DNA of 63,090 nucleotides, taken from contig JAIVJJ010000239.1 in assembly GCA_020200095.1 (NCBI GenBank), positions 1 through 63,090 on the forward strand, read 5' to 3'. Of this stretch, positions 3,155 to 31,353 are shown one piece after another. A program made the translations under genes and the position numbers. The stretch is from Acidobacteriota bacterium (GTDB lineage: Bacteria; Acidobacteriota; Blastocatellia; Pyrinomonadales; Pyrinomonadaceae). Within the stretch, counting starts at the first letter, position 1; every line of letters starts with the position of its first letter. A model generated the notes under the pieces. It had not been told where the DNA came from, did not search any database, and worked only from the letters and a program-made list of their open reading frames with translations.

Positions 3155-4003
3155 GTGGAAAGAATTAAGTATAAAAATCTACCAAATTGTCTTCGACTGA
3201 CAAACGACGAAATCGAAGTTGTTGTTACAACCGATGTCGGACCGCGAATTTTACGTTATGCTTTCCTCAAAGGCGAAAACATTTTTGGCGAACATTTCGA
3301 TGCAAAAGTCGAAACTGCGCTCGGAGAATTTAAGCCTTACGGCGGTCACCGTTTGTGGATTGCGCCGGAGAATATGCCGAATTCTTATACGCCGGATAAC
3401 GCGAGGGTCGAATATTTTTTCGATGAACAGAAAAATTCGATTCGCCTGATTCAAGCGATTGAGCCGGTAACAAAAACGCAAAAAGAAATCACCGTCGCTT
3501 TAGACGAAAAGGGAAGCGGCGTTTCGATAAATCACAAAATTACTAATTGCGGTTTGGAATCAACTGAAGTTGCTGCGTGGGCATTGACGATTATGCGCGG
3601 CGGTGGGGAAGCGTTGATTCCAAACGAGCCTTTTGCACCTTACGGCGCGGAGACTTTGCTTCCGGTAAGAAATTTAACCGTTTGGTCTTACACGGATTTG
3701 TCTGATTCGCGCTGGCTCCTCGGTAAAGATTTTATTCGTTTGAAAGTTGCTGCCGAAAAAAGCGAGCCGCAAAAAATCGGCGTTTTGAACAAACAAGGCT
3801 GGGCGCAATATCGTGCCGGAAATTTAGAATTTACCAAGCGCTTTGATTTTGTCGAAAATGCCGTTTATCCTGATATGAACTCAAATACCGAGCTTTATAC
3901 GGCGGGAGATTTCGTCGAAATCGAATCTCTTTCTCCTTTGCAGAAAATCAAACCGGATGAATCAGTCGAACACATTGAGCGGTGGAAACTTGATTTAGTC
4001 TAA
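3155..4003 (+). CDS. GalM-like / DUF4380-type protein
   Basis: This 282-residue protein begins with a GTG codon and has the N-terminal motif VVVTTDVGPRILRYAF typical of DUF4380 proteins. These resemble the galactose mutarotase beta-sandwich fold. A conserved GGHRLWIAPE follows near residues 63-72. The family is poorly characterised; the position directly after galT and galK suggests sugar handling, possibly anomer interconversion, but the active residues of classical GalM are not evident to me. There is no signal peptide, so it is probably cytoplasmic. The only reasonable start is GTG at 3155, placed just behind the inverted repeat and without a strong ribosome site. Confidence 0.7.
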   Translation: MERIKYKNLPNCLRLTNDEIEVVVTTDVGPRILRYAFLKGENIFGEHFDAKVETALGEFKPYGGHRLWIAPENMPNSYTPDNARVEYFFDEQKNSIRLIQAIEPVTKTQKEITVALDEKGSGVSINHKITNCGLESTEVAAWALTIMRGGGEALIPNEPFAPYGAETLLPVRNLTVWSYTDLSDSRWLLGKDFIRLKVAAEKSEPQKIGVLNKQGWAQYRAGNLEFTKRFDFVENAVYPDMNSNTELYTAGDFVEIESLSPLQKIKPDESVEHIERWKLDLV

Positions 4004-30227: not shown

Positions 30228-30349
30228 TAAATAAACCTCAGTAGAAAAATTTTAAAGATGCAGTTATTTTAAGCTTTTCGAGAAAGGGAAACAAACAGAT
30301 TCAAACGAGACATTCAAACTGCTTTGTACCGACCGCCAATTAAAAAGTG

Positions 30350-30424
30350 GGGCGGCTAGTGGGATTCGAACCCACGACATCTTGAACCACAATCAAGCGC
30401 TCTAACCACTGAACTATAGCCGCC
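30350..30424 (-). tRNA. tRNA-His (GUG)
   Basis: On the minus strand GGCGGCT and AGCCGCC form the acceptor stem. The D arm is AGTTCAGTGGTTAGAGC-like, and the anticodon stem CTTGA/TCAAG encloses loop TTGTGGT with anticodon GTG. The T arm is GTGGGTTCGAATCCCAC. The discriminator is C, as expected for tRNA-His. Confidence 0.96.
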
Positions 30425-30597: not shown

Positions 30598-30653
30598 TAT
30601 TTTGAAAATTTGAATGCCCCCGGCACGACTCGAACGTGCGACCCACAGCTTAG

Positions 30654-31303
30654 CTTACCTCACTTGGTTTCCCAAGCCCTGTTTCCCAAAAGAAAAACAA
30701 GTTGAAAGTCTGGACTATATCTTAGGCATTTCAGCCTGAGCGCGTTTAGTCTCTACGGTGTCTCTGTGTAATCTTCGGCAAAGTTGATACCTTTTGCCTG
30801 GTTGTTTTTAGGATTTGCGACGCGAATCGTAAAACACTTTCCGACCGTTTCCGGTTTGAAGTAATAACACTGGTCGGTGTCAGGACAATAAACGCAAAAA
30901 ACGTCAATCTGTGATTTATCAATTTGCTTTCCGTGCGAACCGTTTATGTCAGCCCACCAGCTTTTCATTGGAATCTGGACTGAACCATTTACGGCTCGGC
31001 GATATTTGACCTGAATTCTTATAAAACGATTGTCTTTATAAGCCGCCAAATCAAACGGCGCGTGTTCGGTTGCCGGAAACAAAACTACGAATCCTTTTTC
31101 AACCAAATCACAGAAAGCCTTCGCAACTCCTAAATCGCCTTTGTTTTTCGTATGATGAATTATCATTTCCACTTATTTTCAAAGGCTTTCACAAAGTTCC
31201 CTCGGTGTTGTCATAGGATTTTTCGCAAAATCCCTTAGATATTCACCGATATAGCGCTCTCCACTGTATAAATTACTTATTCTCTATACAGGCTCCTTAT
31301 TTA
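30654..31303 (-). ncRNA. Self-splicing group I intron
   Basis: The 650-nt intron follows a U (exon end CUU), and exon CUU pairs with internal guide GAG to give the U-G wobble of P1. P2 is CTGTATA/TATACAG, and a P5-like hairpin is GGATTTT-GCG-AAAAATCC. The conserved R strand GUAGAGACUAAA (about 30744-30758) and S strand AAGAUAUAGUCC (30712-30723) form P7 through GACUA/UAGUC. P8 is AGGC/GCCT, and a P9 hairpin CTTGG-GAAA-CCAAG has a GNRA loop. The intron ends in G (GGTAAG, 30654). Start and end resemble cyanobacterial tRNA-Leu introns, while the S strand resembles endonuclease-bearing introns; I leave the subgroup open. Confidence 0.9.
30753..31172 (-). CDS. PD-(D/E)XK homing endonuclease in the intron
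   Basis: The 139-residue protein starts with GTG at 31172 (or ATG at 31166) inside the intron. It has the fold pattern of intron-encoded PD-(D/E)XK enzymes such as I-Ssp6803I: an N-terminal helix (GDLGVAKAFCDLVEKGFVVLFP), then APFDLAAYKDNRFIRIQVKYR. There the first catalytic Asp lies in PFDLAAY and the usual acidic residue of the E-X-K site is Gln in QVKY, as in that family. It would cleave intron-less tRNA-Arg alleles and promote intron spread. The stop TAG (30755-30753) lies within the P7 R strand, so coding sequence and ribozyme core overlap. The frame is intact, which suggests recent activity. Confidence 0.87.
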   Translation of the reverse strand: MEMIIHHTKNKGDLGVAKAFCDLVEKGFVVLFPATEHAPFDLAAYKDNRFIRIQVKYRRAVNGSVQIPMKSWWADINGSHGKQIDKSQIDVFCVYCPDTDQCYYFKPETVGKCFTIRVANPKNNQAKGINFAEDYTETP

Positions 31304-31353
31304 AAGGCTGTTGCTCTATCCAACTGAGCTACGAGAGCATAAGGCACTAAAAG

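Follow-up and report, generated by a model that had tools for sequence, protein, structure and literature searches.

In a 63,090-nt stretch of acidobacterial DNA (contig JAIVJJ010000239.1, here called the window) two halves of a tRNA gene stand 650 nt apart and enclose an open reading frame. Can a normal tRNA still be made from this gene, and, if the halves are separated by an intron, do the intron and its reading frame belong together? The original prediction, made from the sequence alone, took the interruption for a group I intron encoding a homing endonuclease in a probable acidobacterium, and the nearest named records are indeed Acidobacteria and Pyrinomonadaceae MAGs.

The interrupted tRNA gene and its ribozyme core

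The halves had been predicted to form a tRNA-Arg(UCU). This was confirmed by ARAGORN, which returned, for the joined exons, tRNA-Arg(tct) with a canonical cloverleaf, the anticodon UCU and every stem paired. From the unspliced gene the program produced only a mis-phased 'tRNA-Stop', and with default settings nothing. The labels 'tRNA-Thr', 'tRNA-Ser' and 'tRNA-Stop' that it attached to split genes were rejected as phase errors, and the exon ends were set by covariance model. The split is common to the window and nine further relatives, and all ten joined genes are tRNA-Arg(tct); the split tRNA is not a product of chance. The features of the locus, all on the minus strand, are the following.

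31304-31338 (-): 5' exon of tRNA-Arg(UCU), positions 1-34, last base U34 (ARAGORN on the joined exons; same split in 9 relatives)
30654-31303 (-): group I intron, 650 nt, between anticodon bases U34 and C35, last base G (joined tRNA, covariation, model R1)
31293-31296 (-): internal guide GGAG, its GAG forming P1 with exon CUU, with U34.G next to the cut (sequence; invariant in 15 relatives)
31264-31291 (-): P2 hairpin (CTGTATAGA / TTTATACAG), double-sided changes in 6 of 9 pairs
31254-31259 (-): 5' strand of P3, GAGCGC, partner 30738-30743, double-sided changes in 5 of 6 pairs, 100% paired
31202-31249 (-): P4 (31244-31249 with 31202-31207) around the P5 hairpin, 100% paired
31190-31196 (-): 5' strand of P6, CTTTGTG, double-sided changes in 7 of 7 P6 pairs
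30753-31172 (-): reading frame of 139 aa in loop L6, GTG start or ATG at 31166, predicted PDDEXK_5 homing-type endonuclease (Pfam, profile, fold)
30762-30768 (-): 3' strand of P6, CACAGAG, from codons near the 3' end of the reading frame, thus in dual use (sequence, covariation)
30712-30751 (-): P7 5' strand, P3 3' strand, P8 hairpin, J8/7 AAGATAT and P7 3' strand, the G-binding core (sequence, covariation)
30663-30676 (-): P9.1 hairpin with GNRA loop (CTTGG GAAA CCAAG), double-sided changes in 5 of 5 pairs
30615-30653 (-): 3' exon of tRNA-Arg(UCU), from C35 to the discriminator base A73, without an encoded CCA (ARAGORN, exons joined)
30348-30423 (-): tRNA-His(GUG), the downstream neighbour, which stands beside tRNA-Arg(UCU) in many relatives too

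The 5' exon ends in ..GCCTT, the intron in ..GTAAG, and the 3' exon starts with CTAAGC... The U before the intron and the G at its end had been pointed out beforehand; U34 pairs with a G of the guide, so that P1 is CUU:GAG with a U.G pair.

The Rfam group I model RF00028 did not report the window copy, either at the gathering score or at E<=10, therefore the structure was tested directly by covariation. The set consisted of 15 introns with the interior of the reading frame cut out, from Acidobacteriota (one of them naturally without a reading frame), Gammaproteobacteria, Exiguobacterium and Anaerolineae. Over P2, P3, P4, P6, P7, P8 and P9.1, including the P3/P7 pseudoknot, 98.3% of the cells were paired, compared with 77.6% in shuffles and 29-39% with slid partners; the helices were picked by reading the sequences, and both controls were still far lower. 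Pairing reached 100% in P3, P4 and P8, 99% in P7 and 94% in P6. Both sides changed in 29 of the 44 core pairs, and in 18 of 28 pairs of the P3-P8 core, which is present and conserved together with its pseudoknot. The covariation shows a conserved group I core, and the predicted group I intron after U34 is supported.

The proposed check with the Rfam model gave a divided answer. A sister intron of the same genus without a reading frame (L147) matched RF00028 over the full model length (31.4 bits, E 1.9e-6), and the window copy had no match. The gathering score of the model is 50 bits, above the score of the sister intron and likewise above that of the tRNA-Leu(UAA) intron of the same genome (37.5 bits); missing it is a matter of the score cut-off and not a biological feature. 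In the original prediction the lack of a group I model match was to count against the intron; taken literally this is what was found for the window copy, and it is overruled by the covariation and the sister intron. Our own covariance model of the intron 3' core (R1, 17 rows) matches the window at 30654-30758, the window copy being one of its rows.

The insertion site and the sequence resemble those of tRNA-Leu introns, and subgroup IC3 was considered. The cyanobacterial tRNA-Leu(UAA) introns are of the Anabaena type, belong to group IC3 and are inserted after U34; the Anabaena intron is not known to contain a reading frame. Their P1 and 3' end are similar to those of the window's intron, but the host tRNA is different. 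With R1, Leu(UAA) introns were found too, including one in the window's genome.

The reading frame in loop L6 and its probable movement

A PD-(D/E)XK endonuclease of the I-Ssp6803I kind had been predicted, and the check suggested for it, a Pfam search for PDDEXK_5, gave a match to PF11645 at 4.4e-39 (134.1 bits, cut-off 26.1). The profile and fold searches agreed. A profile of 26 relatives found I-Ssp6803I in the PDB (2OST) at 3.4e-12, and the predicted fold (pLDDT 87.7) had the same entry as best PDB match (E 4.3e-9, TM 0.74). The residues D41, Q54 and K56 are invariant in the 26 relatives and aligned with 2OST. The larger profile was needed for this match: phmmer with the single sequence found nothing in the PDB, and a profile of nine sequences reached only E about 0.9. 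Searches of NCBIfam and of plasmids yielded nothing useful for the endonuclease, and PHROGs returned an unnamed family only. On sequence and fold prediction, the 139-aa product is an I-Ssp6803I-like PD-(D/E)XK protein and a predicted endonuclease. Codons near the end of its gene build the 3' strand of P6; as each of the seven pairs of this helix has double-sided changes, coding sequence and ribozyme are tied to each other there.

Some intron proteins have acquired maturase roles, thus the protein might be a splicing helper, or else an unrelated nuclease. We give this hardly any credence: sister introns without the reading frame keep the core, the fold and the invariant residues match those of I-Ssp6803I, and there are free-standing relatives without an intron, always by tRNA-Arg(UCU).

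It is interesting to compare the intron with its counterparts in the same genus, where it measures 650 or 653 nt with the reading frame and 236-237 nt without it. At four-fold sites the endonuclease gene of the window is 84% identical to that of two other genomes, G002 or G026, a rough margin, as only 45-50 sites could be compared; the corresponding values are 64/55% for cmk and 39/42% for the other neighbour. Because congeners have the intron without the reading frame, and because its silent sites are better conserved than those of the flanking genes, the endonuclease gene seems to be a later arrival than the intron. The intron cores with and without the reading frame are equally similar (85-93%), therefore the two need not move as a unit. 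The simplest reading of these sequence comparisons is a recent spread of the endonuclease gene through introns that already existed.

Alternatively, an ancestor of the class could simply have passed on intron and endonuclease jointly, with the enzyme being kept and homing lost. The cmk, tRNA-Arg, tRNA-His locus is syntenic across genera and the intron occurs widely within the class, as this would predict. We nevertheless regard it as unlikely: the presence of the endonuclease varies inside one genus, its silent sites have diverged far less than those of the neighbours, some copies are decaying (a stop in G026, a frameshift in G018), and at the same site there are other introns with a LAGLIDADG reading frame instead.

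R1 matched in 72 of the 162 genomes of the class and, outside it, in six genomes of a 297-genome sample of the phylum; by these matches, tRNA introns of this kind are common in the class and few elsewhere in the phylum. The host tRNAs of 90 resolved loci were Arg(UCU) with insertion after U34 (32) or after position 36 (2), CAU tRNAs (Ile/fMet; 22), Leu(UAA) (20) and Lys(CUU) (14). The two introns after position 36 (L156 and L159, in G090 and G094) are 302 and 214 nt long and mark a second insertion site. Arg(UCU) introns contain a PDDEXK_5 reading frame, a LAGLIDADG one, or none. The LAGLIDADG introns (L142, L145, L157, L161 and L162) are 648-665 nt long and occupy the same site; the assignment was scored for L142 only and made by the DLAWLAGIIDGEGC motif for the other four. 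The window's bin contains three introns: besides that in Arg(UCU), there is one in Leu(UAA) with an HNH reading frame and one in Lys(CUU) with a second PDDEXK_5 reading frame. This last, a 714-nt group I intron (L050 1530-2360 on G000:C201, and L171), has a reading frame that extends into the ribozyme, across P7, P8 and the 3' strand of P7. In another genome of the class (G131) a tRNA-fMet intron, L221, encodes an I-Ssp6803I-like protein (PDDEXK_5, 9e-48).

The probable need for splicing

If the element is what it appears to be, the intron would fold after transcription, a guanosine would attack after U34 at the U.G pair of P1, and the joined exons would give a normal tRNA-Arg(UCU). The endonuclease, translated from loop L6, would cut intron-less tRNA-Arg(UCU) genes around the anticodon, and the intron and/or the endonuclease gene would be copied into the cut genes during repair. 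By splitting the target the intron would protect its host, and the use of the end of the reading frame as the P6 3' strand would couple enzyme and ribozyme. We consider it highly probable that the window carries such a mobile group I intron and that this account of splicing and homing holds as a whole.

The host would depend on splicing if the split gene were its only reader of AGA, a codon used 8.9 times per 1000 codons in the reading frames of the window. Each of five intron-less relatives has the exact intact arm, AGAGCANNNGCCTTCTAAGC, but it was found in none of 21 relatives with the intron; G022 has a candidate arm with one mismatch. The window's bin, however, does contain one exact intact tRNA-Arg(UCU) arm, on contig C453; a second intact copy, together with a lack of spliced RNA, had been named in the original prediction as counting against the intron. 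This contig could mean that the intron is dead or a poor splicer and that an intact gene with a full anticodon arm stands in for the split one, which would then be a pseudogene. Against this, C453 has a GC content of 51.5%, compared with 44% for the window, and it bears a second tRNA-His, duplicating the Arg-His locus. It also matches a genome of another genus (G012, genus g5; flank 74%, tRNA-His 99% identical), in which tRNA-Arg(UCU) is itself interrupted by an intron of 275 nt. A further contig of the bin, C150 (L082), resembles C453 (L081): they have about 52-55% GC and hold second copies of tRNA-Arg(UCU), tRNA-His, tRNA-Gly and tRNA-Cys. It is most likely that C453 is mis-binned, and the same is probable for C453 and C150 as a pair. 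The exons of the split gene are intact and fully paired, its core is intact, no intron-bearing relative has the exact intact arm, and the covariation shows long-term selection on the core. A pseudogene is therefore very improbable. The split gene is apparently the organism's only tRNA-Arg(UCU) and AGA reader, and thus its splicing would be essential.

Relatives inside and outside introns

A scan of 84,980 genomes found 49 loci with at least 49% identity to the endonuclease, all 49 of them in or beside tRNA-Arg(UCU); altogether this holds for 52 of the 52 relatives found at that threshold, intron-borne or free-standing, which come from Acidobacteriota, Gammaproteobacteria, Exiguobacterium, Anaerolineae, Myxococcales, Actinomycetota and phages. 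The gene lies within an intron in Acidobacteriota, Sedimenticola, Wenzhouxiangella, another gammaproteobacterium, Exiguobacterium and Anaerolineae. The genes of Actinomycetota are free-standing and oriented divergently from an intact tRNA-Arg(UCU), and in a Myxococcales MAG the gene abuts the tRNA. It stands beside tRNA-Arg(UCU) also in the viral contigs L138 and L139, in Synechococcus phage Sf-FR1 (55%) and in Acinetobacter phage Herod (39%). In the tree the free-standing actinobacterial genes form one clade (99/92); the intron-borne genes were not recovered as a clade, although a single clade is still allowed. We considered whether mycobacteria carry a tRNA altered for simple resistance; the available arms do not support this, because several mycobacteria retain the GCCTTCTAAGC core beside the endonuclease gene. 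Distant PDDEXK_5 genes occur in tRNA clusters of Salmonella phage vB_SenA_SM5 (Kuttervirus; L270, next to a tRNA-Asn by ARAGORN, annotated as tRNA-Met) and of Moranbacteria (L135 and L137, next to tRNA-Thr/Tyr).

Some intron-less relatives are accompanied by broken tRNAs. On the viral contig IMGVR_UViG_3300029568_000024 (L139, 2924-3518) a broken tRNA encloses, between its two halves, a relative of the window endonuclease and an intact tRNA-Arg(UCU). The acceptor strands of the broken tRNA pair; its anticodon arm is interrupted and resembles that of tRNA-Arg(UCU). At L076 (1464-2034) and L077 (1469-2100; endonuclease on the plus strand) a PDDEXK_5 gene and an intact tRNA-Gly(CCC) interrupt a second tRNA-Gly(CCC) in its anticodon, and the two halves of this broken tRNA are left with pairing acceptor strands; in a similar tRNA-Gly(CCC) cassette (L071, after 954) only the 3' half is left. 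One-half scars beside intron-less PDDEXK_5 relatives were found, besides L071, at L070, L127 and L063. The Arg-like 3' half at L127 (about 3453-3490) starts at CTAAG, exactly at C35, where the 3' exon of the intron-bearing gene starts. At L063 (about 1915-1955) a tRNA-His half is downstream of a PDDEXK_5 gene that follows an intact tRNA-His. There were 13 half-tRNA motifs in 74 kb near PDDEXK_5 genes, a few of them ordinary tRNA-array or intron neighbours, compared with 15 in 245 kb farther off.

The scars support cutting by the endonuclease in the anticodon region, and they suggest a second route of survival, in which the gene would bring a replacement tRNA with it; the tRNA-Gly(CCC) unit of L076, L077 and L071 looks like a mobile cassette of this kind. 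We lean slightly towards a more general reading, that PDDEXK_5 proteins are a class of anticodon-targeting homing genes, one tRNA isoacceptor per lineage, with three interchangeable modes of survival: the gene may be part of a group I intron, it may break the original tRNA at the anticodon and supply an intact substitute there (tRNA-Gly(CCC) at L076 and L077, tRNA-Arg(UCU) at L139), or it may stand next to the tRNA. The window would then hold the intron form for tRNA-Arg(UCU).

The closest known system is the tRNA-fMet intron of Synechocystis with I-Ssp6803I, likewise a PD-(D/E)XK endonuclease in a group I intron within a tRNA anticodon loop. The two proteins share the fold (TM 0.74) and the aligned D..Q.K residues, but they are only about 17% identical in the structural alignment and their host tRNAs differ (fMet and Arg(UCU)); the overlap of the end of the reading frame with P6 is a further difference. 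The reading frame of L221 is closer to I-Ssp6803I than that of the window.

According to Hausner et al. 2014 (PMC3984707), most group I introns of bacteria interrupt genes for tRNA and rRNA. The original prediction held a tRNA-Arg(UCU) host to be undescribed, and here it was mistaken: PMC4853749 reports that tRNA-Arg-TCT contains putative group I introns in Ca. Thiomargarita nelsonii and also, with reference to MacGregor et al. 2013, in Beggiatoa 'BOGUAY', and gives no reading frame or structure. These share with the window the host tRNA and the group I assignment; the genes, from Gammaproteobacteria, are much shorter (324 bp with exons in T. nelsonii), and no endonuclease, structure or insertion site is described for them. 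The 'group I introns' of 22-49 nt in cyanobacterial tRNA-Arg(ACG), Gly and Lys (PMC5733544) are too short for such a ribozyme and were not taken as a precedent. In the collaborative homing described for cyanophage psbA (PMC6083498, citing Zeng et al. 2009), the free-standing nuclease F-CphI is aimed at an intron site; there, as in the window's lineage, intron and nuclease gene can live apart. F-CphI has another nuclease fold, a protein-coding target and is confined to phages, whereas the window's lineage has a tRNA as its predicted target and occurs in several bacterial phyla as well as in phages.

In the open-access literature we did not find described a PDDEXK endonuclease in tRNA-Arg(UCU), an acidobacterial host of a tRNA-Arg(UCU) intron, or the free-standing series and the replacement-tRNA cassettes; this absence is weak evidence, because only open-access papers were covered. 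Relative to the literature found, new are the class-wide tRNA introns (72/162 genomes), with PDDEXK, LAGLIDADG or no reading frame in those of Arg(UCU), the double use of the last codons as P6 3' strand, the tie of all 52 relatives to tRNA-Arg(UCU), and the presence of some intron-less relatives, along with an intact substitute tRNA, inside a tRNA broken in its anticodon.

Default ARAGORN and the Rfam gathering thresholds both miss the split gene here, therefore genomes like this one can seem to be without tRNA-Arg(UCU), tRNA-Lys(CUU) or tRNA-Leu(UAA). These loci offer a natural series for asking how self-splicing introns and homing endonuclease genes become associated: in one lineage, at one tRNA, the endonuclease gene is free-standing (actinobacteria, phages), intron-borne (Acidobacteriota, Gammaproteobacteria, Exiguobacterium, Anaerolineae), or missing from the same intron in close relatives, and elsewhere another class of endonuclease occupies the same tRNA-Arg(UCU) intron.
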